Of a DNA stretch of 64,000 nt, positions 15,169 to 47,496 are shown one piece after another; the stretch's first letter is position 1; each line of letters starts with the position of its first letter. The notes beneath the pieces are model-generated. The model saw only the letters and a list, made by a program, of their open reading frames with translations, did not search any database and had not been told where the DNA came from. Origin of the DNA: Actinomyces sp. oral taxon 170 str. F0386 (GTDB lineage: Bacteria; Actinomycetota; Actinomycetes; Actinomycetales; Actinomycetaceae); assembly GCF_000195595.1 (NCBI RefSeq), contig NZ_GL882538.1:79267-143266 (forward strand), in the 5' to 3' direction. Both the position numbers and the translations under genes were made by a program.

Positions 15169-15182
15169 TTTGTCCAGACTAA
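15169..15182. promoter_or_regulatory. IolR-type operator, degenerate (TTTGTCCAGACTAA)
   Basis: One mismatch to TTTGTCNNGACAAA; 44 bp upstream of the TauE/SafE start, between that gene and the isomerase. Weakest of the eleven sites. Confidence 0.45.
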
Positions 15183-15254
15183 TGCACAGGCACCGACGGC
15201 GAGACCAGTGGGGAAAGGCCTCGCCGTCGGCGCAGTGGGGTGGTGGGAACCGGT

Positions 15255-16253
15255 TCAGAGTCGGGCAGCGGCCTCAAGGAGGTTGCGCGCTGAGATCTGA
15301 AGTCCTTCGACATTGCCGTACTCGGCGTCCTCGTGCTCGATGTTGACGTCCATCTCCGGGTCGATCTCGGCGATGGCGGTCAGGAACGTGGCCCAGTAGT
15401 CGGTGTCGTGCCCCAGGCCGAGGGCCACGAATCGCCAGGCTGGGTCCTGGGGCCAGGCGTTGCACCAGTAGCCGTATGCCACCGGGACCTTGCCCTTGGC
15501 CTCGGCCGGAACATGGCCGAAGTCGGTGTCCAGGACCCCGCGGTAGGCGGCGCCGGGGAGGATCCTGGTGTCCTTGGCGTGGACGTGTCCCACGAGGGAG
15601 CCCAGGCGCTTGGTGGCCGTGATCGGGTCCATCTGCTGCCAGAACAGGTGGGAGGGGTCCATATTGACCTTGATGTTGGTAGCCCCGGTCTCCTCGATGA
15701 GCCGCTCGAAGGAGGGGACGTTGAAGACCAGGTTGCGCGGGTGCAGCTCGAGGCAGACCTGGACGTCGTTGTCCCGGGCCAGGGCATCGATCTCCTTGAA
15801 GAAGGGCACGACGACGCTCCACTGGTAGTCCAGGATCTCCATGTCGATCCCGTTCCAAGGATTGACCACCCAGGTGGGGTACCTCGCGCTCGGGTCGGTG
15901 CCCGGGGTACCGGACATGGTGACGATCTCGCCCACCCCCAGCAGGCTCGCCAGGCGGATGGCCGCCCGGATGTCCTCGGCGTGCTTGAGACCCTCGTTGG
16001 GCAGGGGTGAGGTGGGGTTTCCCGAGGTGTTGAGGCCCGAGAGCCGCATTCCCCTGTCCTGGAAGAGGCCCAGGTACTCCTCGCGGGCGGTGGGAGAGGC
16101 CAGGAGCGCGTCGACAGGACAGTGCGGGGAGGGGATGAATCCTCCGACGTTGACCTCCGCCCCGGTGAGCCCTGCGTCCTTGAGGACGTCGAGGGCCTCA
16201 GGCAGGGAGCGGTCCTGGAGGCAGGCGGTGTAGGCGCCGTAGGTCAGTGGCAT
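15255..16253 (-). CDS. Sugar phosphate isomerase/epimerase (xylose-isomerase-like TIM barrel)
   Basis: 332-residue AP-endonuclease-2/xylose-isomerase-like barrel. Metal-binding positions are visible as Glu in VCLELHPRN (about 167), Asp in VNMDPSHLFW (about 197), His in GHVHAKDTR and Glu in VNIEHEDAEYG near the C-terminus. It lies 72 bp downstream of a Gfo/Idh/MocA oxidoreductase, with AAGGAG before its ATG, so the pair forms an operon that probably oxidises and isomerises a sugar or cyclitol. Local control by the upstream LacI protein is likely. The precise substrate is unknown; several Actinobacteria use such pairs for inositol or rare hexoses. Confidence 0.85.
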   Translation of the reverse strand: MPLTYGAYTACLQDRSLPEALDVLKDAGLTGAEVNVGGFIPSPHCPVDALLASPTAREEYLGLFQDRGMRLSGLNTSGNPTSPLPNEGLKHAEDIRAAIRLASLLGVGEIVTMSGTPGTDPSARYPTWVVNPWNGIDMEILDYQWSVVVPFFKEIDALARDNDVQVCLELHPRNLVFNVPSFERLIEETGATNIKVNMDPSHLFWQQMDPITATKRLGSLVGHVHAKDTRILPGAAYRGVLDTDFGHVPAEAKGKVPVAYGYWCNAWPQDPAWRFVALGLGHDTDYWATFLTAIAEIDPEMDVNIEHEDAEYGNVEGLQISARNLLEAAARL

Positions 16254-16325
16254 GAGTGGTCTCCTTGTACGTCTTTGTGCTGCTGTGTCTCTGAACGTGT
16301 CGCGGTGGGCTGGGCAGGGTGTGCC

Positions 16326-17552
16326 TCACAGGCTCCCGAGCTCGGGCAGGTCCGTGACGTCGACGGCGGTGCCCCCGGCCGCGGCTGAGCGGGCCACGGC
16401 GTCGGCCAGGAGCATCTCGCGGTAGCCGTCGGCGAAGCTGGCACAGGGTGGCAGGGCGCCCTGCTCGGGCGTCACGCCCGCGACCTGCTGGAGGAAGGCG
16501 TGGGCCTGGTAGGTGAACTGCTCGATCTGGGTCAGTCCGACCCCGCCGAAGGCCATGGAGGAGCCGCGGGCGAAGTAGGGGAAGTCGGGGTTCACCAGGA
16601 CACGGCGGGCCCCGCCCAGGCCGGCCGGCGAGTTGACGTCGTCGATCTTGATCTCACCGCAGCGGGCCAGGTCCCAGGAGGCACGGCCCTTGGTGCCCAG
16701 CACGTCGACCATGAGGGAATTGGGCAGTCCCCAGGCCACGCGCGAGCAGGAGAAGGTGCCCACGGCGCCGCTGGCGAAGTGCGCGGTGAAGGTGGCGACG
16801 TCGTCGTTCTCCACCGGCTCGTAGGTGACGTTGTCGGAGTCGCCGGTGTCGAGGGCGGTGCCGCGGGTGATGTGGCCGGTGGCCACGGGGCGCTCCTTGA
16901 TGGAGGTCATCATGGCAGCGCCCGAGACCGAGACGATGGGGCCGCAGATGACTTCGGCGGTGTCGATGAGGTGGCTGCCGACGTCGCCCAGAGCCCCCGA
17001 GCCCATGGGGCCCTGGTAGCGCCAGGCCATGGGCGTGGCCGGGTCGACCCCGTAGTCGCACCAGTAGCGGCCGTCGAAGTGGTTGACCTCGCCCAGGTGT
17101 CCCTCGGCGACGAGCTTGGCGAGCTCGGCCACGGCGGCGTTGCGGCGGTAGGTGAAGCCCACGCCGGTGACGACGCCGGCCTCCTTCTCCGCCTGGGCCA
17201 TGGCGCGGGCGCTGGCAAGGGTGTCCGCCAGGGGCTTCTCGCACAGGACGTGCTTGCCGGCTCTGATGAGGGCCTCGGCGATCTCGCGGTGCAGGGCGTT
17301 GCCCACCACGATGGAGACGATGTCGATGTCCGGGTCCTCGGCCACGACGCGCCAGTCGTCCACGGCTCGCTCGTAGCCGTAGCGCTGGGCGGCGTCCTCG
17401 GCGAAGGGGAGGTAGGCGTCGGCGATGGTGTGCAGACGGACCTGCGGCAGGCCCAGGTCGAAGACGGTGCCGACCTGACGCCAGGCGTTGGCGTGGGTGG
17501 TGCCGGCCATTCCGGCGCCGATGACGGCGACTGACAGGGGAGTGATGCTCAT
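16326..17552 (-). CDS. Gfo/Idh/MocA-family oxidoreductase
   Basis: 408-residue NAD(P)-dependent sugar dehydrogenase. The N-terminal Rossmann motif is VAVIGAGMAGTTHANAW (residues 8-24); HVLCEKPLADT near 103 supplies the catalytic lysine of the EKP motif; ALGDVGSHLIDTAEVI near 195 supplies the Asp and His of the active site. Slightly longer than simple inositol dehydrogenases. First gene of the operon with the 15255-16253 isomerase. Its promoter carries a 26-bp palindrome just upstream (LacI-type operator) and an IolR-type site further up. Substrate unknown, probably a cyclic polyol or aldose. Confidence 0.88.
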   Translation of the reverse strand: MSITPLSVAVIGAGMAGTTHANAWRQVGTVFDLGLPQVRLHTIADAYLPFAEDAAQRYGYERAVDDWRVVAEDPDIDIVSIVVGNALHREIAEALIRAGKHVLCEKPLADTLASARAMAQAEKEAGVVTGVGFTYRRNAAVAELAKLVAEGHLGEVNHFDGRYWCDYGVDPATPMAWRYQGPMGSGALGDVGSHLIDTAEVICGPIVSVSGAAMMTSIKERPVATGHITRGTALDTGDSDNVTYEPVENDDVATFTAHFASGAVGTFSCSRVAWGLPNSLMVDVLGTKGRASWDLARCGEIKIDDVNSPAGLGGARRVLVNPDFPYFARGSSMAFGGVGLTQIEQFTYQAHAFLQQVAGVTPEQGALPPCASFADGYREMLLADAVARSAAAGGTAVDVTDLPELGSL

Positions 17553-17667: not shown

Positions 17668-17681
17668 CCGGTTCTGAATGA

Positions 17682-17695
17682 TTCGTCAGGACAAA
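17682..17695. promoter_or_regulatory. IolR-type operator (TTCGTCAGGACAAA)
   Basis: One mismatch to TTTGTCNNGACAAA; 130 bp upstream of the 17552 start, just above the -35 of the oxidoreductase promoter. Confidence 0.6.
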
Positions 17696-17881
17696 GATGT
17701 TCAGTCTATGGGGCGGGTGCAGAGGCTGGGACCGTGGTCCCCGGTCGGGGAGACGGCTCATGGTGCCCTCGCTGTCCGACGTCGTGTGGCGCGGGAGCCG
17801 GTTCCGCGCTGGGTGGGGTGGTCGTCACCGATGAAACGTGCGGTGCCAGGCTCGCCGTCGGTTCCGCGCTGGGGGCGGTCG

Positions 17882-18901: not shown

Positions 18902-19191
18902 CGATCTCCTCACCTCGTGTCTCCTGCCCGCGCGGGCACCTACGAGACCTCAGGTTACCTGTGGGAGGCGACTCCACGGGGTTCGGATGGTACTGGCCTG
19001 GGGACGTCCGTACTGCACGAGACCCCGGATTCCGTGGAGTGCATCCCCAGACCCGGCCAGTTGCTCCTTCTGACGCAGCCTCTCAGTGCGACGACGCCCC
19101 CGATCTGCGGCGGTCGGGGGCGTCGTCGTGAGGTACCTACTGACGGGGCGGAGCGGGAAGGAGCGGGGTCCCGGTCCGCTGTCGAAGCGTC

Positions 19192-20118
19192 TCAGGCCTT
19201 GAAGAGCGTGTCCTCAAGGTAGGCGCGCGCCTTGCGGGCGTACTCCAGGGGGTTGGCGATGGCCGGGTCCTGCTCGGCCTCCACCAGGATCCAGTCGCGG
19301 TAGCCGTGGTCCACCAGGAACTTGTAGGGCGCGATGAAGTCGATCGTGCCGTCACCGGGAACAGTGAACATACCGGCCAGGAAGGAGTCGAGGAAGGAGC
19401 GCTCGGCAGCCTTGGACTCCGCCATCTTCTCGGGGCGCACGTCCTTGAAGTGGACGTGCTTGACGCGGTCGATGGTGGCCTCCAGCAGGCCCATGACGTC
19501 GCCGTCGCCCACGTAGGCGTGACCGGTGTCGAACAGGAGCGAGACCTTGGTCGGGTCGGTCAGCTCCATGAGACGGATGGTCTCCTCCTTGGTCTGGATG
19601 ACCGTGCCCAGGTGGTGGTGGTAGACGAGCTCGAGGCCGTGGGCGTGGGCGACGTCGCCCAGGCGGTTCAGGCCCTCGGCCAGAAGCGGCCACTGCTCCT
19701 CGGTGAGCACCGGCTTGTTGGTGAAGATGCAGACGTCGCGGATGCCCTGGACCGAGCCGGTCTGCTCGGAGACGACGACGCGGGTGGCGCCCAGGTACTC
19801 CAGGTAGGCGCAGGTGGCCTCGAAGTCGGGGATAACGGCCTCGACGCCGTCGCGCAGGATGAAGGAGGAGAACCACTGGGCGACGATCTTGATGCCGCGG
19901 GCCTCGGCAGCGGCCTTGACCTCCTCCTTGGGAGGGAAGAAACCGGCGCACTCGGTGCCCGCGTAGCCGGTGTCGGCCAGGTCGAGGAGCATGTCCTCCA
20001 ATGTGTTGAAGGCGCCGACCTCGGGGATGTCGTCATTGCGCCAGGTGATCGGGTGCATGCCCCAGGAGATGCCGTGGGGGTCGGAGATGGCGGTTGCAGG
20101 GTCGAGGGTGAAGGACAT
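19192..20118 (-). CDS. iolE: Inosose dehydratase (2-keto-myo-inositol dehydratase)
   Basis: 308-residue TIM-barrel enzyme. IolE removes water from scyllo-inosose to give the diketone cleaved by IolD. The family N-terminus is clear: GISWGMHPITWRNDDIPEVG at residues 16-35, then GTECAGFFPPKEEV, with metal ligands in YHHHLGTVIQT, LLFDTGHAYVG, HVHFKDV and the final LVEAEQDP. ATG 20118 is preceded by GGAG at 6 bases; the frame is open further upstream without homology. It is separated from the iolT-like transporter by 230 bp that holds an IolR-type operator, so it has its own promoter. Best iolE candidate of the four isomerase-like genes here. Confidence 0.88.
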   Translation of the reverse strand: MSFTLDPATAISDPHGISWGMHPITWRNDDIPEVGAFNTLEDMLLDLADTGYAGTECAGFFPPKEEVKAAAEARGIKIVAQWFSSFILRDGVEAVIPDFEATCAYLEYLGATRVVVSEQTGSVQGIRDVCIFTNKPVLTEEQWPLLAEGLNRLGDVAHAHGLELVYHHHLGTVIQTKEETIRLMELTDPTKVSLLFDTGHAYVGDGDVMGLLEATIDRVKHVHFKDVRPEKMAESKAAERSFLDSFLAGMFTVPGDGTIDFIAPYKFLVDHGYRDWILVEAEQDPAIANPLEYARKARAYLEDTLFKA

Positions 20119-20293: not shown

Positions 20294-20307
20294 TTTGTCC
20301 TGACAAG
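20294..20307. promoter_or_regulatory. IolR-type operator (TTTGTCCTGACAAG)
   Basis: One mismatch to the palindrome; 176 bp upstream of iolE and downstream of the iolT-like gene. Confidence 0.65.
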
Positions 20308-20348: not shown

Positions 20349-22004
20349 TCAGGAGTAGAGCTTCTCCATCTCGACCTCGATCTCCTCCAGGGACTTGTCC
20401 TTGGTCTCCGGCATGATCTTGAACAGGATGACGGCCACGACCAGGTTGAGCACACCGTAGATGGTGTAGGTGACGCCGCCGCCCAGGGTCTCCATCATGG
20501 GCGGGAAGGTCCAGGTGATGATGGCGTTGGCGGTCCACATGCAGAAGATCGCCGTGCCGTTCATGATGCCGCGGACGTTGGCCGGGAAGATCTCACCCAT
20601 CATCGTCCACACGATGGTGCCGTTGGAGGACTGCACGATGAGCATGAAGACGGACATGAGTCCCAGGATGAGGTAGGCGGCCCAGGCGGGCGGGGTGGTG
20701 TGGTTCGCCATGTGCGGGGCGATGAAGAACTGGAAGGTCGCGGCGATGCCCAGCAGGGTGACGCCCACGCCGATGACGTCGCCAATGAGCACCTGGCGAC
20801 GACGGAACTTCAGGATGAGCCAGATGCCGATGGCCGAGCCGACGACCGACATGACGCCGTTGGCCACCTGGGCGGTGATGGAGGCGGAGGTGGACATGCC
20901 GGCGTACTCCAGCACCTTGGGGGCGTAGTACATGACGGTGTTGACGCCGGTGGTCTGGTTGACCACGGCCAGGAAGATGCCGACCAGGAGCAGCTTGCGC
21001 AGCCAGGGTGTGGCCATGACGTGGCTGAAGCCCCTGCGCTGGGACTCCTCCTCCTTCTCGTGCTGACGAGCCTCGACCATCTCCATGATCTCGTCCTCGA
21101 TGGAGCCGTCCTTCTCCGGGACGCGCACGCGCTTGAGGGAGCCGATGGCGTCGTAGAGGCGCTCCTTAGCCAGGTACCAGCGCGAGGACTCGGGCATGAG
21201 GCGGATCCCGATCCACAGGGCCACGGCCGGGATGGAGCACAGGACGAGCATGTAGCGCCAGGCCTCGCCGTTACCGGCGCTGATGCTGAGTTGGTCGAGG
21301 AAGGCGTGGTACTCGGCTCCGCTCATCGAGCCGCCCTTGGAGGCCTGGAGCTTGGTGATCTCGTCGAAGACGTAGGTGCCCGGGGAGAAGTGCCCGCTGG
21401 GGTCGTTGGCGATGGTGATCTTCGGACCACCCTGGAGGGAGTTGATGATGGCGTTCATCGAGAAGGCGAGCAGCTGACCGGTGACGATCATGAGCTGGTC
21501 GATGGCCACGATGGAACCGCGGATGCGTTTGGGCGCCGTCTCCGCCAGGTAGACGGGGACGGTTGCGGAGGCGGCTCCGACGGCGAAGCCCAGGACGACG
21601 CGGAAGGGGTACATGACCCACACGTTGGGGGCGATGGTGGTTCCGATCGCGCCGACGAAGAACAGGACGGCCAGCACGGTGATGTTGTGTCGCCGGCCCC
21701 AGCGGTCCGACATGAGCCCGCCCAGCAGGGCGCCCAGTGCGGCGCCGACCAGCAGGGTGCCGCCGATGGCACCTTCCTCGAAGGAGGTCAACTGAAGGCC
21801 CCTGGCGTCAAAGGGCATGTACATGTACGGCAGGGCGCCGGAGATGACGCCGGTGTCGTAGCCGAAGAGCAGTGAGCCGAGCGTGGCAACGGCGGCGATG
21901 GCGACGACGCCGCGGTGCTTGCCCGAGGCCGGGGTCTTGGCGACTGCCTCATTGAGCTCTTCCCTGGTGAGTCCGCGCAGGGACGTCGTGACTCCCTGTG
22001 ACAT
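20349..22004 (-). CDS. MFS sugar-porter family transporter, IolT-like
   Basis: 551-residue 12-helix transporter of the major facilitator sugar-porter family. Hallmarks: GSLLFGYDTGVISGALPYM in helix 1, DRWGRRHN in the first loop, ETAPKRIRGS after helix 4, PESSRWYLAK before the central loop, QQ-like VNQTTGVNTVMYYAP in helix 7, and a PETKDKSLEEIE C-terminus. Helix 1 matches inositol permeases (IolT). A long extracellular insert (about 200-250) is unusual. It lies 108 bp after the 22113-23309 oxidoreductase and may be co-transcribed. Paralogous to the 39892-41508 transporter. myo-Inositol or a related polyol with protons is the probable substrate. Confidence 0.88.
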   Translation of the reverse strand: MSQGVTTSLRGLTREELNEAVAKTPASGKHRGVVAIAAVATLGSLLFGYDTGVISGALPYMYMPFDARGLQLTSFEEGAIGGTLLVGAALGALLGGLMSDRWGRRHNITVLAVLFFVGAIGTTIAPNVWVMYPFRVVLGFAVGAASATVPVYLAETAPKRIRGSIVAIDQLMIVTGQLLAFSMNAIINSLQGGPKITIANDPSGHFSPGTYVFDEITKLQASKGGSMSGAEYHAFLDQLSISAGNGEAWRYMLVLCSIPAVALWIGIRLMPESSRWYLAKERLYDAIGSLKRVRVPEKDGSIEDEIMEMVEARQHEKEEESQRRGFSHVMATPWLRKLLLVGIFLAVVNQTTGVNTVMYYAPKVLEYAGMSTSASITAQVANGVMSVVGSAIGIWLILKFRRRQVLIGDVIGVGVTLLGIAATFQFFIAPHMANHTTPPAWAAYLILGLMSVFMLIVQSSNGTIVWTMMGEIFPANVRGIMNGTAIFCMWTANAIITWTFPPMMETLGGGVTYTIYGVLNLVVAVILFKIMPETKDKSLEEIEVEMEKLYS

Positions 22005-22112: not shown

Positions 22113-23309
22113 TCAGACGTCGAAGGTGGTCCGGCCCTCGACGCGGGGGACCTCATGCCACTGACCGTCGGCGGCCGAGGCGACGACGGCCTCATCGACC
22201 TCAGCAGCGCACCAGGCGTCGGCAGCCGAGGGGGCGATCTGCTCGCCGGTGATGATCGACTCGATGAACTGCGCGGCCTCGATGGCCTTCATATCGTCGA
22301 AGCCCATGGAGGTGCCGATGGCCGGTTGGAAGCGCTGCCACTGGCCCCACTGGGGGCCGGCCATGGCGCGGGTGTAGCCGTGGGAGGCGCCGCCGTCGAG
22401 CACGGGGCAGATCTCCAGCTCGTTGAGACGCTCGAAGTTCCACCGGGCCGAGCCCTTCGTGCCGTAGACCTCGACGACGTACTCGGCGCGCGGGCCCACG
22501 CTGACGCGCGAGGACTCCATGGTGCCCACGGTGCCGTCCTCGAAGCGCACCAGCATGGAGACGTAGTCCTCGTTCTCCACCGGGCCAACCTCGTCGCCGA
22601 TCTCGAAGCCGGAGTGGCCGATGCCCATCTTGGTGGGAATGGGGCGCTCGGTGATGAAGGTGTCGGTGACTGCGGTGACCGAGGCGATGCGTCCCACGAT
22701 GTACTGGGCCAGGTCCGCGCCGTGGCTCATGAGATCGGGCACGACTCCGGCCCCGGCCTTCTCCTTCGACGCCCGCCAGGTCAGGGGGCCCAGAGGGGAG
22801 GAGTTGTAGTCGGCGATGAACCACACGCGCACGTTCGTGATGCGGCCGAGATCGCCACCGCGCACCAGGGAGCGCAGGTACTCAATCGCCGGGGTATGGC
22901 GGTAGTTGAAGCCGACGGCGGTGACGAGGTCCGCCTTCTCGGCGGCCTGGGCGATCTCGCGGGACTGTGCAGCACTGACCCCCATGGGCTTCTCGATCCA
23001 GAAGGGCTTGCCGGCCTCGACGGCCGCGAGGGCCATCTCATGGTGAAGGAAGTTGGGGGCGCAGATGGAGACGGCCTCCACCTCGGGGTCGGCCAGCAGA
23101 TCGTGGTAATCGGCGTAGGCGCGCTCGAAGCCCAGGTTGTCCACCGCATCCTGACGCACTTGGTCCACCGGGTCGGCGGCCGCAACTAGACGCGGGACCA
23201 CGCCCAGCTCGGGGAAGCGCTCGGCGATGGCGCGGTAGCTGCGGGCATGAAGCCGTCCCATCCATCCCAGGGAGATGACTCCGATGCCCAGTATTCTCTT
23301 GTCGGTCAT
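22113..23309 (-). CDS. Gfo/Idh/MocA-family oxidoreductase (inositol dehydrogenase-like)
   Basis: 398-residue Rossmann dehydrogenase. The cofactor motif is GVISLGWMGRLHARSYR near residue 10, a WIEKPMGV segment near 100 supplies the catalytic lysine, and VVPDLMSHGADLAQYI near 195 supplies the Asp/His pair. The NAD motif is altered (GWMG). ATG 23309 has AAGGA 6 bases upstream. The frame is open to 23663 without homology. Divergent from a LacI gene at 23711. An IolR-type operator lies 109 bp upstream. Probably oxidises an inositol isomer or derivative, paired with the downstream transporter. Confidence 0.86.
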   Translation of the reverse strand: MTDKRILGIGVISLGWMGRLHARSYRAIAERFPELGVVPRLVAAADPVDQVRQDAVDNLGFERAYADYHDLLADPEVEAVSICAPNFLHHEMALAAVEAGKPFWIEKPMGVSAAQSREIAQAAEKADLVTAVGFNYRHTPAIEYLRSLVRGGDLGRITNVRVWFIADYNSSPLGPLTWRASKEKAGAGVVPDLMSHGADLAQYIVGRIASVTAVTDTFITERPIPTKMGIGHSGFEIGDEVGPVENEDYVSMLVRFEDGTVGTMESSRVSVGPRAEYVVEVYGTKGSARWNFERLNELEICPVLDGGASHGYTRAMAGPQWGQWQRFQPAIGTSMGFDDMKAIEAAQFIESIITGEQIAPSAADAWCAAEVDEAVVASAADGQWHEVPRVEGRTTFDV

Positions 23310-23710
23310 AACGTTCCTTTCCGACAACACTGTCGGCTGCTGTGTGTGAGGAAGTACGTCCGGAAGCCCCGGGAAGCACCCGTCGTTAATGACGTCACAG
23401 GAACATATCAGAGTGACTTTGTCCTGACAAGATGAAAGTTGGATGAGAATTACACCAATGTGGCCCGGAATGTGGGTCGGACCTGCCCGAGCGACCTTCG
23501 TCGGCCTGCAGGTGCAGGGGGGCGTGCTGCTCGATCGGGTCGTAAGTGCGGTCGATGGGCGGACTGATTGTGAACCTATGAGTGGCCATCTACCTGCTGA
23601 AACGGCGTCGTCGGATAGGATGGGGCGAACGGTGTCCGAGGTCGGGTGCCGGGTCTCGCGCAACGCGCGGGATCGGTAGGCACAACGGTGTGAGAAGGGA
23701 GGCGTCTGCG
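23310..23710. other. 400-bp divergent intergenic region
   Basis: Lies between the oxidoreductase (-) and the LacI gene (+). It holds an IolR-type operator at 23418-23431 and, for the LacI gene, a TAGGAT -10-like element near 23614-23619 plus an AAGGGAGG ribosome site. I see no further gene. Confidence 0.5.
23418..23431. promoter_or_regulatory. IolR-type operator (TTTGTCCTGACAAG)
   Basis: Same sequence as the iolE site; 109 bp upstream of the oxidoreductase start at 23309. Confidence 0.68.
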
Positions 23711-25993: not shown

Positions 25994-26983
25994 TCAGCTC
26001 AGGCGCACCGGCTGGCCGGAGTGGGCCGACTCCGTGGCGGCCTCGGCCAGGCGCAGGGCCGCGATGGCGTCCCCGATACTGGTGGGCGGCGTGGTGCCGG
26101 CCTCGACGGCCTCGATGAAGGCGCTCAGCTCGATGCGGTAGGCGTCGGCGTAGCGCTCCAGGAAGAAGTCGAGGTAGGGCTCCTGGGCGTCGGTGACCTC
26201 GCCATTGGACAGGCGCACCGTGGTGGCGCGGATGTTCTCGGCGAACAGGGCGCCCTCGCGTCCCGAGGCCTCCAGGCGCTGGTCGTAGCCGGAGGAGCAG
26301 TGGCGGTTGTTGATGATGGTGGCCACGGCGCCCGAGGCGGCCTTGAGGGTGACGACGGCGGCGTCGAAGTCGCCGGTGTCCTTCAGGGCCGGGTCGAGGT
26401 TCTGTCCGGCGGCGTAGACCTCCTCGATCTCACCCAGGAAGAAGCGGGCGGTGTCGAAGTCGTGGATCGTCATGTCCCGGAAGATGCCGCCGGAGACCTT
26501 GATGTACTCCGCCGGCGGGGCCGCCGGGTCGCGGCTGATGATGGTCAGCTGCTCGATGTCGCCGATCCTGCCGGCCTCGACCGCGGCGCGGGCGGCGGCG
26601 AAGCTGGGGTCGAAGCGGCGGTTGAAGCCGAACATGACGGGGACCTTGACGGAGTCGAGCTCGGCCTGGGCGGCCTCGACGTCCTTCATGTCCAGGGCGA
26701 TCGGCTTCTCGCACAGCACCGCCTTGCCCGCCTTGGCGGCTGCCAGCAGGTGGGGGATGTGCAGCGGTGTGGGGGAGCCGACGATGACGGCGTCGATCTC
26801 GGGGTCGGCGAAGACCTCCTCGGCGTCCTTGCAGGACCGAGCCCCGTAGGAGGCGGCGAGCTTCTCCGCGGCGTCCTCGAAGGGGTCGCAGACCAAGGCG
26901 AGCTTGGCCTGGGGGTGGGCAGCGATGGTCTTGGCGTGGACGTGGCCGATGCGGCCGGCGCCGATGACGGCGATGGAGAGCAT
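25994..26983 (-). CDS. Inositol 2-dehydrogenase-like Gfo/Idh/MocA oxidoreductase
   Basis: 329-residue dehydrogenase close to IolG. Rossmann motif IAVIGAGRIGHVHAKTI at residues 4-20, AVLCEKPIALD near 92 (catalytic Lys), GFNRRFDPSFAAAR near 124, and GGIFRDMTIHDFDTARFF near 168 (Asp and His of the active site). The NNRHCSSGYDQRLEASG segment is typical of inositol dehydrogenases. ATG 26983 has AAGGAG 5 bases upstream. It lies 186 bp downstream of the transaldolase on the same strand and probably shares its IolR-controlled promoter. It is the second of two strong iolG candidates; this one could handle another inositol isomer. Confidence 0.85.
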   Translation of the reverse strand: MLSIAVIGAGRIGHVHAKTIAAHPQAKLALVCDPFEDAAEKLAASYGARSCKDAEEVFADPEIDAVIVGSPTPLHIPHLLAAAKAGKAVLCEKPIALDMKDVEAAQAELDSVKVPVMFGFNRRFDPSFAAARAAVEAGRIGDIEQLTIISRDPAAPPAEYIKVSGGIFRDMTIHDFDTARFFLGEIEEVYAAGQNLDPALKDTGDFDAAVVTLKAASGAVATIINNRHCSSGYDQRLEASGREGALFAENIRATTVRLSNGEVTDAQEPYLDFFLERYADAYRIELSAFIEAVEAGTTPPTSIGDAIAALRLAEAATESAHSGQPVRLS

Positions 26984-27169
26984 CCTTGCTCCTTCTGCGT
27001 GTGAGTGCGTGTCTGAGTTGGTTCCTGAATGGCGGTCAGTGGTGAGTGGGAGGGCGGGGGACGACGCGGAACGTGTCTGGGCGCGTCGCCTCCCCACCCA
27101 GGTGCGGCGGATGCCGCCTGTAGCCGACCGGGCTCCCACCAAGGCCCGGGCGAGCCGGATCAGGGCTGC

Positions 27170-28246: not shown

Positions 28247-28344
28247 CTGTTCTGTGCTCTCTTTCGGGTTCATCCGCGCAGGCGTCCTTGCAGCCGCGGT
28301 CCGGTAGCCCCTATTGAAGTGCGCTCAGCGTCATCTGTCAACAA

Positions 28345-28358
28345 ATTGTCAGGACAAA
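28345..28358. promoter_or_regulatory. IolR-type operator (ATTGTCAGGACAAA)
   Basis: One mismatch to TTTGTCNNGACAAA; 99 bp upstream of the transaldolase start at 28246. Confidence 0.68.
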
Positions 28359-29344: not shown

Positions 29345-29358
29345 AATGTTCTGACAAA
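29345..29358. promoter_or_regulatory. IolR-type operator (AATGTTCTGACAAA)
   Basis: Three mismatches, but a fully conserved right half. Between gntR (193 bp to its start) and iolC (106 bp to its start), allowing autoregulation and control of iolC. Confidence 0.55.
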
Positions 29359-34667: not shown

Positions 34668-34681
34668 TTTGTTCTGACAAA
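34668..34681. promoter_or_regulatory. IolR-type operator (TTTGTTCTGACAAA)
   Basis: One mismatch to the palindrome; 157 bp upstream of iolA. Confidence 0.68.
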
Positions 34682-34837: not shown

Positions 34838-36331
<1,494 letters not shown>

Positions 36332-36454: not shown

Positions 36455-36468
36455 TTTGTTAGTACAAA
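36455..36468. promoter_or_regulatory. IolR-type operator (TTTGTTAGTACAAA)
   Basis: Keeps the outer TTTGT and ACAAA arms; 84 bp upstream of the isomerase-iolG operon. Confidence 0.62.
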
Positions 36469-36551: not shown

Positions 36552-37481
36552 ATGTCCAAAGCCGTCAACACCAACGACCCCAAGTACTCCAGGCTCACCA
36601 TCGGCGTCTGCCCCGACCAGTGGGGCGTCTGGTTCCCCGAGGACCCCAAGCAGATGGACCCCCGTCAGGCCTGGGAGGAGATGGCCGAGGCCGGCTTCGA
36701 GGTCATCGAGACCGGCCCCTTCGGCTACTTCCCGACCGACCCCAAGGAGCTCCAGAAGTGGTGCGACGAGTTCGGCATGAGGGTGGTCGCCGGTACCGGC
36801 TGGGGCATCCTGCACAAGCAGGAGGCCTGGGAGACCACGCTCAAGACCTTCCGCGCCATCGCCGAGACCCACGCCGCCGTCGGCGCCGAGTACATCGTCC
36901 ACCTGCCCCCGCTCTACCGCGACGACAAGACCTGGGAGTGGACCGACGACCGCGTCCTGTCCGACGACGCCTGGAAGCTCTACGTCGAGCACGCCAACGC
37001 CCTGGGGCAGATGCTCCTGGACGAGTACGGCCTCAAGATGGTCCTCCATCCCCACGGCGACTCCCACATCGAGACCCCCGAGGAGATCGCCCGCATCTTC
37101 GACGCCACTGACCCGACCTACGTCAACCTGTGCCTGGACTCCGGGCACGTCGTCTACGGCGGTGGCGACCCAGTCGAGCTGTGCCGGAAGTACCCCGAGC
37201 GCATCACCTACGTCCACATCAAGGCCTTCGACGAGGACATCACTCGCGAAGCCCACGAGAAGGACTGGCCCTTCGGCGAGGCCGTCACCAAGGGCGCCTC
37301 GGTCTGCCCGCCCGCCGGCCTGCCCGAGATGCACGAGTTCGTCGACGCCCTGGCGGCCCTGGACAAGCCGATCTACGCGATCTGCGAGCAGGACTGCTAC
37401 CCCTGCGAGCCCTCCTTCCCCAAGCAGAACGCCATCAACATGCGCACGTACCTGGCCGAGTGCGGCCTGGGACTGGCCTGA
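36552..37481 (+). CDS. Sugar phosphate isomerase/epimerase, inosose isomerase/dehydratase-like
   Basis: 309-residue xylose-isomerase-like barrel. Metal ligands appear as His-Pro-His in MVLHPHGDSHIETPEE near 160, Asp in LCLDSGHVVYGGGDP near 194, His in YVHIKAFDED and Glu in YAICEQDCYP near the end. The IGVCPDQWGVWFPED start resembles the IolE/IolI group but lacks the WRNDD motif of the 19192 protein. The frame is open far upstream through iolA, but ATG 36552 has AAGGAG 6 bases before it and starts the homologous part. Sixty-two bp before iolG, thus one operon. An isomerase of keto-inositols (IolI-like) is the leading guess. Confidence 0.83.
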   Translation: MSKAVNTNDPKYSRLTIGVCPDQWGVWFPEDPKQMDPRQAWEEMAEAGFEVIETGPFGYFPTDPKELQKWCDEFGMRVVAGTGWGILHKQEAWETTLKTFRAIAETHAAVGAEYIVHLPPLYRDDKTWEWTDDRVLSDDAWKLYVEHANALGQMLLDEYGLKMVLHPHGDSHIETPEEIARIFDATDPTYVNLCLDSGHVVYGGGDPVELCRKYPERITYVHIKAFDEDITREAHEKDWPFGEAVTKGASVCPPAGLPEMHEFVDALAALDKPIYAICEQDCYPCEPSFPKQNAINMRTYLAECGLGLA

Positions 37482-37543: not shown

Positions 37544-38554
37544 ATGACTGTACGCATCGGACTCATCGGCGCCGGCGGCATGGGCCGCGCCCACCTGGCC
37601 CGCATTGCCAATGATCTGTCCGGCGGCGAGATCGTCGCCGTGGCCGACATCAACCACGACGCCGCGGTCTCGGCCGCGGAGCCTTATGGCGCCAAGGCCT
37701 ACGACAGCGCCGATGAGCTCATCAACGACCCGAACGTCGACGCCGTCCTCATCGCCACCTTCGGCAAGGTCCACGCCCCCGACGTCATCAAGGCCATCGA
37801 GGCCGGCAAGTACGTCCTGTGCGAGAAGCCCCTGGCCACCACCGCCGAGGACTGCATCGCCATCATGGGGGCTGAGCAGAAGGCCGGCAAGAAGCTCGTC
37901 ACCGTGGGCTTCATGCGCCGCTTCGACGCCGCCTACAACGAGATGAAGAAGGTCCTCGACGACGGCGAGAACGGCCAGGCCCTCCTGGTCCACAACCGTC
38001 ACCGCAACCCCACCGTGCCGGAGTCCTACACCTCGCGCATGGCTATCGACGACACGGCGATCCACGAGATCGACACGATGCGCTGGCTCCTGGGCGAGGA
38101 GATCGTCAAGGTGCGCGTGGAGCGCCCCAAGTCGACCACTCACCGCTTCGACCACCTCATCGACCCGGTCGTCGTCGTCATGTATACCGAGTCCGGCGTG
38201 CGCATCGATGACGAGGTCAACGTCAATCTGCAGTACGCCTACTCCATTGAGTGCGAGCTCGTGCTGGAGGCCGCCGCGGTGAGGCTGGGCGACCAGGAGA
38301 GGATCCACATCCGCGACGTCCACGGCAACCGCAACGCCATGTGCCAGTCGCACATCGACCGCTTCGAGGCCGCCTTCAACCGCGAGGTGCAGGAGTGGAT
38401 CAACGCCGTGGCCCGCGATGAGCACACCGGTTCGACCTCCTGGGACGGCTACGCGGCCACCTCCGTGGTCGACGCGGCGGTCGCCTCGCTGGAGGACGAG
38501 TCCTCACCGATGGTCGACGTCACGCTCATCGCCAAGCCCGCCTTCTACGCCTGA
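37544..38554 (+). CDS. iolG: Inositol 2-dehydrogenase
   Basis: 336-residue NAD-dependent enzyme that oxidises myo-inositol to scyllo-inosose, the first step of the pathway. Rossmann motif IGLIGAGGMGRAHLARI at 5-21; YVLCEKPLATT near 93 holds the catalytic lysine; FMRRFDAAYNEMKK near 125; DDTAIHEIDTMRWLLGEE near 167 supplies Asp and His. The C-terminal HGNRNAMCQSHIDRFEAAFNRE region is typical of IolG. ATG 37544 has GAGGAG upstream. Ends with a U-tract terminator. Confidence 0.92.
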   Translation: MTVRIGLIGAGGMGRAHLARIANDLSGGEIVAVADINHDAAVSAAEPYGAKAYDSADELINDPNVDAVLIATFGKVHAPDVIKAIEAGKYVLCEKPLATTAEDCIAIMGAEQKAGKKLVTVGFMRRFDAAYNEMKKVLDDGENGQALLVHNRHRNPTVPESYTSRMAIDDTAIHEIDTMRWLLGEEIVKVRVERPKSTTHRFDHLIDPVVVVMYTESGVRIDDEVNVNLQYAYSIECELVLEAAAVRLGDQERIHIRDVHGNRNAMCQSHIDRFEAAFNREVQEWINAVARDEHTGSTSWDGYAATSVVDAAVASLEDESSPMVDVTLIAKPAFYA

Positions 38555-38800: not shown

Positions 38801-38814
38801 ATTGTCATGACATT
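38801..38814. promoter_or_regulatory. IolR-type operator (ATTGTCATGACATT)
   Basis: Core TTGTCATGACA intact; 46 bp upstream of iolH, so it probably overlaps the promoter core. Confidence 0.62.
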
Positions 38815-38859: not shown

Positions 38860-39729
38860 TTGGTAGACATCGCCCTTGACCCGAACATGTACTACCGCAC
38901 CATGTCCACGGTGCGTACGCTCTACAAGGCCGCAGAGCTGGGCTTCGAGCACGTCGAGCTCTCGCCCAACGCGGACTTCCACTTCTGGCACCACCGCCCC
39001 GCCGCCGACGATGCTTTTGTCGCCGAGCTCAACAAGGCCCAGAAGGAGACGGGCGTCAAGGTGCGCACCCTCAACCCCGTCTTCAACTGGTCCTCGCCCG
39101 ACGAGGAGGAACGGCGTGCCCAGGTGTCCAACTGGCGTCGCCTGCTCGAGCTCGCCGACCAGATCGACGTCCGCGAGATCACCTCGGAGTTCTCCGGGGA
39201 CCGCAACCAGGCCCGCCGCAGCGAGGAGCAGTGGTTCCGCTCCATCGAGGAGCTCATCCCCGACTTCGAGCGCTATGGCATCCGCCTCAACATGGAGGCC
39301 CACCCCTACGACTTCGTCGAGCTGCACGACCCGGCCCTGGGGCTGGTGCGTGCCGTCAACAAGGACTGGATCGGCTACGAGTTCTGCTGCCCGCACGTCT
39401 TCCACCTCTCCGACGGCGCCGGTGACGTCGAGCGCATGATCCGCACCGCCCACGAGGTCGGCAAGCTGCGCGAGGTGCACATCGCCGACGGCTTCAACCA
39501 CCGCGCCAACGACGGCAACCGCTACATCATCAACCCGCCCGGCGCCGACGTCACCGTCCACCAGCACAACGAGGTCGGCAACGGCGAGATCGACTGGGAC
39601 GCCGTCTTTGCCACGCTGCGCGACATCGGTTTCGATGGCGTGCTGTCCGTCTGCGTCTTCGGCTGGCACGAGCACGCCGATGACATCAACCGCCGAGTGC
39701 TGGCCCGGCTCCACAAAGAGCTCGGCTGA
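38860..39729 (+). CDS. iolH: IolH-like sugar isomerase of inositol catabolism
   Basis: 289-residue TIM-barrel protein of the IolH type. Recognisable segments are LSPNADFHFWHHRPAADD near 38, TEFSGDR-like ITSEFSGDRNQAR near 108, MEAHPYDFVELHDP near 145 and IADGFNHRANDGNRYIINPP near 208 followed by VHQHNEVGNGEIDWD. The start is TTG 38860, the only codon well placed behind GAGAGGAG. Its exact reaction is unresolved in the literature; deletion phenotypes elsewhere suggest an accessory step. 162 bp before iolT2, same strand and probably same operon. Confidence 0.87.
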   Translation: MVDIALDPNMYYRTMSTVRTLYKAAELGFEHVELSPNADFHFWHHRPAADDAFVAELNKAQKETGVKVRTLNPVFNWSSPDEEERRAQVSNWRRLLELADQIDVREITSEFSGDRNQARRSEEQWFRSIEELIPDFERYGIRLNMEAHPYDFVELHDPALGLVRAVNKDWIGYEFCCPHVFHLSDGAGDVERMIRTAHEVGKLREVHIADGFNHRANDGNRYIINPPGADVTVHQHNEVGNGEIDWDAVFATLRDIGFDGVLSVCVFGWHEHADDINRRVLARLHKELG

Positions 39730-39891
39730 CCCTCATCGGTCCTCTCCGTCCACTGTGAGGACCGCTTACCTTGCCGGCTCCCGCTCGTGCACTGCGGGGC
39801 GGTGGCCGGCGGACCGGGCCTCCCGGTTCATCCAGCAGCGCCCTTTTTCGCCCCCGCCAATGACGGCGGACGACCCAAGGAGTTCCGTCCA

Positions 39892-41508
39892 ATGTCCACA
39901 CCATCGAATTCTGCGGCGCAGTACACGCCGGAGAAGATCCGGGAGCTGGTCGATCAGACCCCCGCCTCGGGTCCGAAGCGCTCGCTCGGACTCATCGCCC
40001 TGGTCGCCACCCTCGGCTCGCTGCTCTTCGGCTACGACACCGGAGTGATCTCGGCCGCGCTGCCGTATATGTACCTGCCTCACGACGCCAACGGCCTTCA
40101 GATCAACTCGGTGGAGGAAGGCCTCGTGGGGACCTTCCTGTGCCTGGGCGCCGCGTTGGGCGCCTCGGTCGGCGGCAAGCTTTCCGACAAGTACGGGCGT
40201 CGCCACAACATCACGCTCCTGGCCGCCGTCTTCTTCTTCGGCGCACTGGGATGCACCTTCTCGCCGAACATCTGGGTCCTCTACTTCTTCCGGATCGTCC
40301 TGGGCTTCGCCGTCGGTGGCGCCTCGGCGACGGTCCCGGTCTTCCTCGGTGAGACGGCCCCCAAGCGCATCCGCGGAACGCTCGTGGCCGTGGACCAGAT
40401 GATGATCGTCTTCGGTCAGTTCCTCGCCTTCTCGATGAACGCGGTCCTGACCCAGATCCACGGTGGTCCGGAGGTCACCGTCGCCAAAGACGTCGTCAAC
40501 AGCTCCGGTGAGGTTGTCGCCAAGGCGGGCGAGACCGTTTCCTGGGAGTCGGTCCAGCACCTGGCCAACGTCGCCGTCGAGTCCGGTAACGGTACGACCT
40601 GGCGCTACATGCTCGTGCTGGCCTCGCTGCCGGCCATCGCGCTGTGGATCGGGATCCGTCTCATGCCGGAGTCCTCGCGCTGGTACGTCGCCAACCTGCG
40701 TATCGCCGAGGCCATCGGAGCCCTCAAGCGTGTACGTGACGAGTCCAAGGACGGCCCCATCTCCGACGAGATCGACGAGATGCTCGAGGTCCAGCGCAGG
40801 GAGGCCAGTCAGGAGAAATGGGGCCTGGCCCAGATCCTCGGCGTCAAATGGACCCGGCACCTGCTCATCATCGGCATCATCCTGGGCCTGGCCGACCAGC
40901 TCACCGGTATCAACACGGCCATGTACTACACGCCCAAGGTTCTCTCCGCGGCCGGTCTGCCCATGAGTGACGCGATCTCCCTCAACGTCGTCTCCGGATT
41001 CATCTCCTTCGTGGGATCGGCGGTCGGTCTGTGGCTGGTCACCAAATTCGCCCGCCGGCACGTGGGCATCTACCAGGAGGCCAGCATCGTGGTCTCACTG
41101 GGGCTCCTGGCCGCGGTCTTCTTCTTCCTCATCCAGCCCTATCAGGACGCCGACGGCAACATCAAGGGCGCTCCCGCCTTCGCCCCCTACCTGGTGCTGC
41201 TCATCGTCTCCCTGTTCGTCTTCGCCAAGCAGTCCGGAACGGTCACCTGGGTCCTCGTGGCGGAGATCTTCCCCGCCAAGGTCCGCGGCACGGCCATGGG
41301 GCTGGCGGTCGGCGCCCTGTGGATCGCCAACGCGATCGTCGCCCTGGTCTTCCCCATCATGATGGAGGGGCTCGGGGGAGCGGGCACCTACCTCATCTTC
41401 TGCCTCATCAACGTGCTCTCCCTCATCTTCTACATGAAGTACGTGCCCGAGACGAAGTACCACTCCCTGGAGGAGCTCGAGGAGCGCTTCGAGAAGGAGT
41501 TCAGCTGA
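39892..41508 (+). CDS. iolT: MFS myo-inositol transporter, IolT-like
   Basis: 538-residue sugar-porter MFS protein with 12 helices. GSLLFGYDTGVISAALPYM in helix 1, KYGRRHN, ETAPKRIRGTL, PESSRWYVAN, LADQLTGINTAMYYTP in helix 7, and a C-terminal VPETKYHSLEELEE. Highly similar in layout to the 20349-22004 transporter, but with a shorter extracellular insert. ATG 39892 follows AAGGAG at 10 bases; the frame is open upstream to 39787 without homology. Downstream of iolH; the probable main inositol importer. Confidence 0.9.
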   Translation: MSTPSNSAAQYTPEKIRELVDQTPASGPKRSLGLIALVATLGSLLFGYDTGVISAALPYMYLPHDANGLQINSVEEGLVGTFLCLGAALGASVGGKLSDKYGRRHNITLLAAVFFFGALGCTFSPNIWVLYFFRIVLGFAVGGASATVPVFLGETAPKRIRGTLVAVDQMMIVFGQFLAFSMNAVLTQIHGGPEVTVAKDVVNSSGEVVAKAGETVSWESVQHLANVAVESGNGTTWRYMLVLASLPAIALWIGIRLMPESSRWYVANLRIAEAIGALKRVRDESKDGPISDEIDEMLEVQRREASQEKWGLAQILGVKWTRHLLIIGIILGLADQLTGINTAMYYTPKVLSAAGLPMSDAISLNVVSGFISFVGSAVGLWLVTKFARRHVGIYQEASIVVSLGLLAAVFFFLIQPYQDADGNIKGAPAFAPYLVLLIVSLFVFAKQSGTVTWVLVAEIFPAKVRGTAMGLAVGALWIANAIVALVFPIMMEGLGGAGTYLIFCLINVLSLIFYMKYVPETKYHSLEELEERFEKEFS

Positions 41509-43044: not shown

Positions 43045-43058
43045 TTTGTCAGGACAAA
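43045..43058. promoter_or_regulatory. IolR-type operator, perfect (TTTGTCAGGACAAA)
   Basis: Exact palindrome arms with AG centre; 81 bp upstream of the alcohol dehydrogenase. The best match of the set. Confidence 0.75.
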
Positions 43059-43138: not shown

Positions 43139-44305
43139 ATGACGAGCAACGAGGCAGTCCAGGCCTCAGAGACAACCGAGTCCATTCCCGAAACCATGAA
43201 GGCCGCGGTCCTGCGTGACCACGAGGTCGGCCTGGAGATCGAGACCCTGCGCACCCCCCGGCCCAAGAGTGGTGAGGTCCTCATCAAGGTGGCCGCCTGC
43301 GGGCTGTGCCACTCCGACCTCCACGTCATCGGTGGCGCCATCGCCTTCCCTCTGCCGGCGGTGCTCGGCCACGAGGTCTCCGGCACCATCGTGGAGCTCG
43401 GCCCCGGCAACGACCACACCGGTCTGAAGGTCGGGCAGAAGGTGGCCGGGGGCTTCCTCATGCCCTGCGGTCAGTGCGACGCCTGCGCCTCGGGACGCGA
43501 CGAGCTGTGCGGTCCCTTCTTCGACCTCAACCGTCTTAAGGGCGTCCTCTACGACGGCACCACCCGCCTGGCCACCCCCGACGGCGAACCGGTGGCGATG
43601 TACTCCATGGGCGGCCTGGCCGAGTACGCCGTCGTGCCCTCCACCGCCGTCGCCCCCGTGCCCGACTCCATCGACATGGTGCCGGCGGCCATCCTGGGCT
43701 GCGCCGCCATGACCGGCTACGGGGCTGTACGCCGCGGCGCCGACCTGCGCTACGGGGAGACCGTCGCCGTGGTCGCTACCGGCGGCGTGGGCACCAACAT
43801 CGTCCAGATCGCCCGGGCCTTCGGTGCCAGCCAGGTCATCGCCATCGACGTCGATGACGACAAGCTCGCCCCAATGCTCGGCTACGGGGCCACCGCCGTG
43901 GTCAACTCGGTCACCCAGGATGCCCGCGAGGAGGTCTTCCGACTCACCGGCGGTAAGGGCGTCGATGTCTCCTTCGAGGCTCTGGGCATCCCCGCCACCT
44001 GGACCACCGCTCTGGACGTCCTGGCCGATGGTGGTCGAATGGTTCCGATCGGCCTGGGCGCCGGTGTGCAGACGGCCGGTGTGGAGATCAACCGCACCGT
44101 GCGCCGCTCGCAGTCGATCCTCGGCTCCTACGGGGCACGCACCCGCCAGGACCTGCCGGCCGTCGTCGACCTGGCCGACAAGGGCGTCATCAACTACCGT
44201 GACGTCGTCTCGCGCCGCCTGCCGCTTGATGAGGCCGGTGCCGGCTACACCGCGCTGCGCAACCGCGAGATCCAGGGGCGCGCCGTCGTCGACATGTCGC
44301 TGTAG
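43139..44305 (+). CDS. Zinc-dependent alcohol dehydrogenase family protein
   Basis: 388-residue medium-chain dehydrogenase. Catalytic zinc ligands lie in CGLCHSDLHV near residue 57 and GHEVSGTIVEL near 80; the structural-zinc four-cysteine loop is CGQCDACASGRDELC near 115; the NAD-binding turn is VVATGGVGTNIVQIARAFGA near 215. Family length is 340-390. Preceded by the best IolR-type operator, which argues for a role in inositol or polyol oxidation, comparable to the extra oxidoreductases of the Corynebacterium inositol regulon. Followed by a perfect hairpin. Confidence 0.88.
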   Translation: MTSNEAVQASETTESIPETMKAAVLRDHEVGLEIETLRTPRPKSGEVLIKVAACGLCHSDLHVIGGAIAFPLPAVLGHEVSGTIVELGPGNDHTGLKVGQKVAGGFLMPCGQCDACASGRDELCGPFFDLNRLKGVLYDGTTRLATPDGEPVAMYSMGGLAEYAVVPSTAVAPVPDSIDMVPAAILGCAAMTGYGAVRRGADLRYGETVAVVATGGVGTNIVQIARAFGASQVIAIDVDDDKLAPMLGYGATAVVNSVTQDAREEVFRLTGGKGVDVSFEALGIPATWTTALDVLADGGRMVPIGLGAGVQTAGVEINRTVRRSQSILGSYGARTRQDLPAVVDLADKGVINYRDVVSRRLPLDEAGAGYTALRNREIQGRAVVDMSL

Positions 44306-46734: not shown

Positions 46735-47088
46735 GCAGGTCCTCTCAGCTGATGACGGAAAAGACGCTTAGTTACTAGTACATATTAAGTATCATGAAGA
46801 GAGTATTAGGGATAGGGTGAGTTCTGCGTCGTCTGTCATAGGGTGCTCGACCGTTGTGGTCCTGGCTCTCGGTGAGGCCTGCATGGAGCGGTGGTGCAGC
46901 CGCGGGCATGAGAAAAGGGGCGCCGCCTGTGCGGTGCCCCTCGGGTTGCCATGGCTGCGCGGGCTTCCTTGGCCGCGCAGCCTCGTTGTCCTGTGCCCTG
47001 CCGGGCTGGGTCCGGGTCCTGCGTTGCTCGTGATGCGTGGCCCGGATCCGGTGGTGAGCTTCAGTGAGCTCGTTGGAGTCGTCTACGC
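46735..47088. other. 354-bp intergenic region
   Basis: AT-richer than average near 46770-46810 (a probable promoter for the macrodomain operon). Holds the 46916-46941 terminator and a further perfect 10-bp hairpin at 46953-46982. No coding frame with local bias. Confidence 0.45.
46916..46941 (-). terminator. Rho-independent terminator of the small membrane gene
   Basis: 11-bp stem (one G-T pair, loop CTGT) followed on the minus strand by a T-run (complement of the AAAA at 46913-46916). Downstream of the 47089-47349 gene. Confidence 0.6.
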
Positions 47089-47349
47089 TCAGCGGGCCTC
47101 GAGGAGGTTCACGCCGGTGTAGATGCCCACGCCCATGGTGATCGCGGCCAGGACGGAGGAGGCGAACATGAGGGTCGGGATGCCGGTGACGGCGCCGACG
47201 ACGGCCATGACCATGACGGCGAACATGACGGCGATCATGGCGACTGCGAAGGTGAGGCGGTTGGCCTCGGTCTGCGTGTCGGTAGTGGTTGCCTGAGTGG
47301 CGGTGGTCTCGACGGTCTGGGTGGGGCGCTCGGTGGTGGTGGCGGTCAT
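47089..47349 (-). CDS. Small two-helix membrane protein with IolR-type site upstream
   Basis: 86 residues: a Thr-rich polar N-terminus (about 1-30), then two hydrophobic helices (about 32-53 and 57-80) and a short NLLEAR tail. No named family recognised. ATG 47349 has AGGA 8 bases upstream. The roughly 130-base leader carries two stem-loops, and an IolR-type palindrome lies 134 bp above the start, suggesting it responds to inositol with the main cluster 3 kb away. Confidence 0.65.
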   Translation of the reverse strand: MTATTTERPTQTVETTATQATTTDTQTEANRLTFAVAMIAVMFAVMVMAVVGAVTGIPTLMFASSVLAAITMGVGIYTGVNLLEAR

Positions 47350-47482
47350 GTGAGTGTTCCTCTCGGTGTGCGTCGAGCAGGTCCGCCTGACCATGAGTCG
47401 TGCGTCCCTGCACGACTGTGTGCAGCCCGTGGGCCGGACGGAGGTTTCTCCGTCACGTAGAACTCTAGGAACGCTCCATCCG

Positions 47483-47496
47483 ATTGTCTAGACAAA
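47483..47496. promoter_or_regulatory. IolR-type operator outside the island (ATTGTCTAGACAAA)
   Basis: One mismatch to TTTGTCNNGACAAA; its inner ten bases (TGTCTAGACA) are fully palindromic. 134 bp upstream of the small membrane gene, 303 bp upstream of guaA. Confidence 0.6.

Follow-up and report, generated by a model that had tools for sequence, protein, structure and literature searches.

Eleven palindromic sites and a GntR-type IolR point to a single inositol regulon in Actinomyces sp. oral taxon 170

Introduction

Which regulator governs the inositol genes of an oral Actinomyces, and through which DNA element, is the question raised by a stretch of 64,000 nucleotides (hereafter the window) from Actinomyces sp. 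oral taxon 170 str. F0386 (contig NZ_GL882538.1, positions 79,267 to 143,266). An earlier note on this DNA had described eleven copies of a 14-bp palindrome between positions 15169 and 47496 and had proposed that they are the operators of one inositol regulon of at least ten units, bound by a protein with GntR and UTRA domains that is encoded among them and is here called IolR. We followed up this proposal by computational analysis of the window, of the whole genome, and of related loci in the genus and the phylum. Based on the results set out below, a dimer of the GntR-type IolR (28400-29152) very probably binds all eleven copies of the palindrome, spread over 32 kb, and represses some 11-12 inositol units.

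Results

Eleven palindromes in an inositol gene cluster

All eleven palindromes were found exactly where the earlier note had placed them, and on the gene map every one of them is intergenic, the open reading frames (ORFs) called across some of the sites (e.g. 17678-18727) being mechanical.

15169..15182, operator 1, before the TauE/SafE permease gene; score of at least 15 at the matching place in 8 of 8 close relatives
17682..17695, operator 2, before the Gfo/Idh-sugar isomerase unit (17552 to 15255)
20294..20307, operator 3, before iolE1; overlaps a -35-like TTGTCA with a 17-bp spacer to TAGGTT
23418..23431, operator 4, between Gfo/Idh B (minus strand) and the LacI2 gene (plus strand); overlaps a -35-like TTGTCA with a 17-bp spacer to TATGTT
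28345..28358, operator 5, before the transaldolase-family/iolG1 unit; 3 bp upstream of TTGACA
29345..29358, operator 6, between iolR (minus strand) and iolC (plus strand), shared by both genes
34668..34681, operator 7, before iolA
36455..36468, operator 8, before the iolE2-iolG2 unit
38801..38814, operator 9, before the sugar isomerase-transporter unit
43045..43058, operator 10, an exact palindrome, before the zinc alcohol dehydrogenase gene
47483..47496, operator 11, 133 bp before the small membrane protein gene

Measured against TTTGTCNNGACAAA, one site has no mismatch, seven have one, the site at 36455 has two, and those at 29345 and 38801 have three. When up to three mismatches were allowed, the window gave 17 matches, and 100 shuffled versions averaged 5.5 and never exceeded 13; the six additional matches all carry three mismatches and look like background. 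With a symmetric scoring matrix built only from the 11 window sites, the best other place in the window scored 10.7 bits, while the sites themselves, each scored leave-one-out with a matrix of the other ten, reached 16.8-25.3 bits. Nor is the palindrome frequent at random places in the 3.135-Mb genome: at up to one mismatch it occurs at 10 places, 8 of which lie inside 15169-47496, and the reversed-pattern control at none. The two outside places give an expectation of 0.02 for the cluster (Poisson P about 1e-18). The 11 palindromes are real and far beyond chance. The operator consensus of IolR from Corynebacterium glutamicum (locus number Cg0196), which we take to be KGWCHTRACA, is matched exactly by 5 of the 11 window sites, with one mismatch by another 5 and with two by the last.

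Allowing two mismatches raised the genome count to 25 places (9 in the cluster, 16 outside), compared with 15 in the reversed control, so that the weaker outside places stand at background level; distant regulon members in the organism's own genome were rejected as candidates on this ground. Two single places were also set aside. One, C3:66768 (L117:6769-6782), is a one-mismatch copy of the palindrome that lies directly before a serine-recombinase-like ORF (seen by eye, with no family search) and probably belongs to a mobile element; the identical 14 letters occur at a place in genome G006, the neighbours of which were not examined. The other, C37:84445, has letters that are absent from the complete match lists of G002, G005, G009 and G025, in a comparison that left out one unplaced extra place in G006.

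Predicted start codons follow the sites at 43-192 bp (12 site-gene pairs, some starts being uncertain), and the gene map bears out that nearly all catabolic units on both strands are preceded by a site; the LacI1 gene has none of its own.

The candidate binder and its link to the palindrome

28400..29152, minus strand, IolR, GntR/UTRA (HutC-type) regulator of 250 aa, proposed binder of all sites

This protein matches the GntR winged helix (PF00392) and the UTRA effector domain (PF07702), both over the Pfam cut-offs, and is 90-95% identical to IolR in records named as A. oris, A. naeslundii and Actinomyces sp. ZJ308. As regards the copy of the palindrome that the earlier note had assigned to the regulator's own promoter region, this part stands for 29345, which is held in common with iolC; the copy at 28345 sits behind the 3' end of iolR and serves the transaldolase-iolG unit.

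When the phylum was scanned, an alignment of 13 relatives of IolR (A1, which excludes L015, the homologues of G048, G055, G046 and G039, and other relatives with unused loci) yielded at least 540 encoding stretches, the best 80 of which were analysed. Homologues of iolC/J/B/D/E lie inside the stretch in 61 of these 80 best loci. One locus (L162) was dropped from the upstream count because it offers 80 bp of upstream sequence only, and in the remaining set the window-only matrix found a site at most 400 bp upstream of the IolR homologue in 71 of 79 loci, or 56 of 61 outside Actinomyces; control tiles of the same length gave a site in 59 of 2067, some of them containing other true operators. The 56 best sites outside Actinomyces all share G4, T5, C11 and A12 of the 14-mer. 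Among 15 Streptomyces-labelled loci, in which the IolR relatives are 46-55% identical, the palindrome lies within the same distance upstream in 13. Apparently, one operator type is retained by IolR from Actinomyces to Streptomyces and Amycolatopsis. In a locus labelled Sanguibacter keddieii (L142), operators flank iolR, its neighbours are transaldolase-family, Gfo/Idh, alcohol dehydrogenase and porter genes, and the 12.7 kb covered contain no iolC/J/B/D/E match.

Within the genus, where the relatives are not independent of one another, IolR homologues occur in 46 of 49 genomes, and the three genomes without one have neither a site at up to one mismatch nor iolD over the cut-off. The latter gene was found in 42 of the 49 (31/37 plus 11/12), and all 42 possess IolR and at least two sites. 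Four genomes (G013, G014, G021, G061) keep IolR without iolD. Of these, G014 and G021 have sites flanking iolR on both sides and no match to either LacI protein of the window in 40 kb (tblastn, E at most 1e-10), a pattern that fits decay of the inositol pathway with the regulator, the operators and a porter retained. With these counts and with the LacI absences described below, the GntR/UTRA protein that the earlier note had named as binder appears to be the best-supported candidate.

In the same two genomes (loci L090-L093) the site behind iolR faces a short ORF that looks truncated and whose start resembles, by eye, that of the transaldolase-family protein, and a sugar porter gene follows about 0.8 kb on. 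In these loci and in the named record L137, the porter near iolR is 92-94% identical over its full length to a window porter, while their IolR is only 65% identical; the porter of four other relatives is 76-80% identical to that of the window. This suggests that the sugar porter was recently transferred between Actinomyces.

Gene maps were drawn for 39 regions from relatives (33 of 40 kb, the rest of 10-29 kb; matches covering less than 35% of the query were dropped), and sites recur at many orthologous positions in most of them. Operator 2 is not found in G009, G006 and G002, where the Gfo/Idh A module is missing too; it also scores below 14 in G005 and in certain less closely related genomes, all of which keep the module. 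In alignments with 5-8 close relatives, 10 of the 11 sites exceed the rest of their intergenic region by at least 0.13 (fraction identical), the site at 36455 being no better conserved than its surroundings (0.62 vs 0.61). In a rank test on the same material, 1-19% of the 14-mers from the same intergenic region were equally conserved at eight sites.

Position of the sites at promoters

With -10 and -35 elements assigned by eye, the operator precedes TTGAC by 2-3 bp at the promoter of the transaldolase-family gene (tal) in 30 of the 31 regions that have a tal match, the remaining region having no site, and by 2-4 bp at the iolC promoter in 33 of the 36 that have an iolC match (regions without a match, or with one below 250 bits, were dropped from the 39). 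In the window, the TTGTCA that stands 17 bp from TAGGTT (iolE1) or TATGTT (Gfo/Idh B) is part of the palindrome, and the palindrome of the alcohol dehydrogenase gene may fall between the promoter elements. Operators that overlap or abut -35-like elements in this manner suit repression by occlusion of the polymerase.

Genes of the cluster

In this member of the oris/naeslundii group of Actinomyces, the cluster holds a complete inositol-catabolic set, namely iolE, iolG, iolC, iolB, iolD and an iolA-type gene, together with sugar porters over the family cut-offs. Other members are a Cgl0159-like protein, additional Gfo/Idh dehydrogenases, sugar isomerases, a transaldolase-family protein, a zinc alcohol dehydrogenase and a TauE/SafE permease.

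14352..15125, minus strand, TauE/SafE family permease (Pfam PF01925)
15255..16253, minus strand, sugar isomerase/epimerase-like TIM barrel (Pfam PF01261; weak IolE match)
16326..17552, minus strand, Gfo/Idh/MocA-type dehydrogenase A (NCBIfam matches below cut-offs)
17882-18913, LacI1, LacI-family regulator
19192..20118, minus strand, iolE1, inosose dehydratase (TIGR04379 over cut-off; the query was the longer ORF 19192-20202)
20349..22004, minus strand, sugar porter MFS transporter 1 (TIGR00879 over cut-off)
22113..23300 (start uncertain), minus strand, Gfo/Idh/MocA-type dehydrogenase B (family search)
about 23582-24766, plus strand, LacI2, LacI-family regulator
25994..27142, minus strand, iolG1, inositol 2-dehydrogenase (TIGR04380 over cut-off)
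27170..28273, minus strand, transaldolase/FSA-family protein (Pfam PF00923)
29464..30507, plus strand, iolC, 5-dehydro-2-deoxygluconokinase (TIGR04382 over cut-off)
30518..31447, plus strand, Cgl0159-like protein, a presumed IolJ-type aldolase by inferred role (Pfam PF22649)
31583..32500, plus strand, iolB (TIGR04378 over cut-off)
32555..34462, plus strand, iolD (TIGR04377 over cut-off)
34838..36331 (start inferred), plus strand, iolA, methylmalonate-semialdehyde dehydrogenase type (TIGR01722 over cut-off)
36552..37481 (start inferred), plus strand, iolE2-like TIM barrel (TIGR04379 at 143 bits, below cut-off; Pfam PF01261)
37546..38554 (start approximate), plus strand, iolG2, Gfo/Idh/MocA dehydrogenase (NF052679 at 362.6 bits, below cut-off)
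38860..39729, plus strand, IolH/IolI-like sugar isomerase (Pfam PF01261)
39787..41508, plus strand, sugar porter MFS transporter, iolT-like (TIGR00879 over cut-off)
43139..44305, plus strand, zinc-dependent alcohol dehydrogenase (family search)
47089..47349, minus strand, 86-aa membrane protein ORF with two hydrophobic stretches and a Thr-rich hydrophilic N-terminus; proposed as a new member of the regulon

Transcription units were inferred from gene order, and several start codons are uncertain. The units headed by a site are the TauE/SafE permease gene, Gfo/Idh A, iolE1, Gfo/Idh B, transaldolase-iolG1, the divergent iolR and iolC, iolA, iolE2-iolG2, the isomerase-transporter pair, the alcohol dehydrogenase gene and the gene for the small membrane protein, in support of the earlier view of a single inositol regulon of at least ten units.

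Relatives of the TauE/SafE permease also occur in regions of other families (G046, G039). In many relatives the transaldolase/FSA-family gene follows iolR and often precedes iolG1, as it also does in Sanguibacter, Cutibacterium and Cellulomonas records. On the minus strand, 45913-46734 encodes a macrodomain ADP-ribose hydrolase (NCBIfam NF003163 over cut-off), found among the relatives' regions only in G002 and G015; the ORF 45060-46181 that overlaps it has no Pfam or NCBIfam match.

A small membrane protein behind the last site

The site at 47483 at first seemed to precede guaA, and the 86-aa ORF, which matches no Pfam family, lies 133 bp away on the other strand. This small protein was recognised in 36 of the 49 genus genomes, comprising 36 of the 42 with iolD and none of the 7 without, an association with a chance probability of 2e-5 if the genomes were independent, which they are not. 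An order-level sample of 297 genomes gave 16 matches, 5 in the genus, 1 in another genus of the family (G234, E 6e-10, with a site 149 bp from the gene) and 10 at E 3e-5 or weaker. In the 31 genes used for the upstream test (30 of the 36 from the genus, plus that of G234), a site scoring at least 14 lies within 260 bp in 28, two more have one at 12.1-12.6, and that of G031 has none; the site of the window itself went into the matrix, and close relatives do not count as independent cases.

In 11 close relatives the base changes in the small ORF fall on codon positions 1, 2 and 3 in numbers of 36, 1 and 45, a pattern expected of a constrained hydrophobic protein. Across 15 comparisons there were 141 nonsynonymous and 61 synonymous codon changes; as the former are not rarer than the latter, the protein changes fast. 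In G001 the gene is inverted, no guaA match is present in 40 kb, and the site is still found 128 bp upstream of the small gene.

Discussion

Cumulatively, our findings are consistent with a mechanism in which an IolR dimer would bind the 14-bp palindrome close to WWTGTYNNRACAWW and, by covering or abutting the -35 region, would block RNA polymerase at about 11-12 units for the uptake and breakdown of myo-inositol and probably of other inositols, iolR itself and the small membrane protein gene being among the units repressed. Binding of an inositol or of a breakdown intermediate to the UTRA domain would release the repressor from the DNA. The figure legend of PMC8634428 draws myo-inositol as the inducer of C. 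glutamicum IolR, and a passage of PMC9603128 names intermediates as effectors for IolR proteins generally.

Considering that two LacI genes lie inside the cluster, and that LacI-type IolR proteins for inositol exist (7 LacI-family groups in a table of PMC4052901), LacI1 or LacI2 might have been the common binder. This is highly improbable, and we rejected it, because the two proteins are variably absent from the fetched regions while the sites persist: the LacI1 match is only 30% in G009, G006 and G002, identity to either LacI is only 29-33% in G028, G008 and G033, and G012 and G001 have no match to either in 40 kb (LacI genes elsewhere in these genomes were not searched for), yet these eight genomes keep 7-9 sites (7 in G012 and 9 in G001 at a score of at least 14). 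Moreover, the sites track IolR across genera. That IolR acts as an activator instead would suit the operators just upstream of the -35 element at tal and iolC. We nevertheless regard activation as very unlikely, given the palindromes that overlap the -35-like element at iolE1 and Gfo/Idh B and the one at the alcohol dehydrogenase gene, which may sit between the two elements, and given that the characterised relatives are repressors in the passages of PMC9603128 and PMC5948850 and in the title of Yu 2015. As to chance or base composition as the source of the sites, to which the background-level matches with three mismatches would belong, it is vanishingly improbable in the face of the clustering, the leave-one-out separation and the conservation across genera.

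The site at 47483 calls for a separate decision, as it lies about 300 bp before the likely start of guaA and could link inositol to purine synthesis, in which case the small ORF would be no gene; the absence of a Pfam family and the excess of nonsynonymous changes agree with this. We consider it quite unlikely, since G001 keeps the site upstream of the inverted small gene where no guaA match is present, the protein is recognisable throughout 36 genus genomes, and codon position 2 holds only 1 of 82 base changes in 11 close relatives. We infer instead that the small membrane protein is a true regulon member. Because it is found only in species bearing the pathway, and because the operator stays with the gene when this is inverted away from guaA, inositol sensing by IolR probably also controls a lineage-restricted, two-helix membrane microprotein of the inositol system, which may act on an inositol transporter or on the membrane.

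Several observations weigh against repression of the whole set by IolR and have to be kept in mind. The case as a whole rests on sequence. The presence of both the sites and IolR is confounded with that of the inositol genes, so that the weight falls on the LacI absences and on the IolR genes without iolD; and two of the latter do not conform, as G013 has IolR and no site at up to one mismatch, and the sole such place in G061 lies 64 kb away from its IolR. In whole-genome counts the reversed control is unbeaten in G001 (3 vs 3) and only slightly exceeded in G012 (3 vs 2), G059 (11 vs 7) and G033 (2 vs 1). Eight of the 79 loci (L132, L133, L144, L178, L182, L192, L195, L201) lack a site in the 400 bp, although in L132 the gene map places one between iolC and iolR. 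At iolE1, no site scoring at least 14 was found in 6 of 22 regions, and the one reported in G008 belongs to another gene. In the rank test, 31-42% of the 14-mers of the same intergenic region are as well conserved as the sites at 17682, 28345 and 36455. To these may be added the position directly upstream of the -35 element, which, as stated above, would fit an activator as well.

The HutC-type GntR/UTRA proteins DasR and YvoA serve amino sugar metabolism with a different operator. In sequence, these proteins (PDB 4zs8, 4u0v) are related to the window IolR over nearly its whole length. By description, the nearest likeness is to C. glutamicum, where passages of PMC9603128, PMC6475665 and PMC5948850 present a GntR-type IolR as the repressor of the inositol uptake and breakdown genes, with control of 22 genes according to PMC6475665, citing Klaffl 2013. 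A table in PMC6475665 lists a mutation that frees iolT1 from this IolR by altering adjacent A and C of the operator, which would fit the GACA half-site. Unlike the C. glutamicum protein, for which the title of Klaffl 2013 names pck, the regulator described here has no target seen outside inositol, 2 of the 10 places at up to one mismatch lying outside the cluster. SCO6974 of Streptomyces coelicolor, likened here by title only, is of the same kind, a GntR-type repressor of myo-inositol catabolism (reference title in PMC6608401; PMC6295645). RpiR-type IolR of Sinorhizobium (reference title in PMC9603128) and LacI-type IolR (table of PMC4052901) share the name and the role and belong to other protein families.

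Accordingly, the statement in the earlier note that a regulon of this kind was undescribed does not hold, the GntR-type IolR being already established in C. glutamicum (PMC9603128, PMC6475665) and S. coelicolor. PMC9430895 counts Actinomyces as a user of inositol and mentions an IolR in A. ruminicola, with no regulon in the passages concerned, and among the papers listed in our literature search there was no title or opening of an abstract on an inositol regulon of Actinomyces, subscription journals being mostly outside its coverage; as an instance, the regulon may be new. What the present analysis appears to add to the GntR-type IolR regulon as known from these two organisms is the small protein and the conservation of the operator across the phylum. 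The former was found through its operator and not through a known family, and its function is directly testable. Together, these findings provide a defined operator and a candidate regulator for inositol use in common mouth bacteria, and prediction of this regulon across the phylum would become possible.

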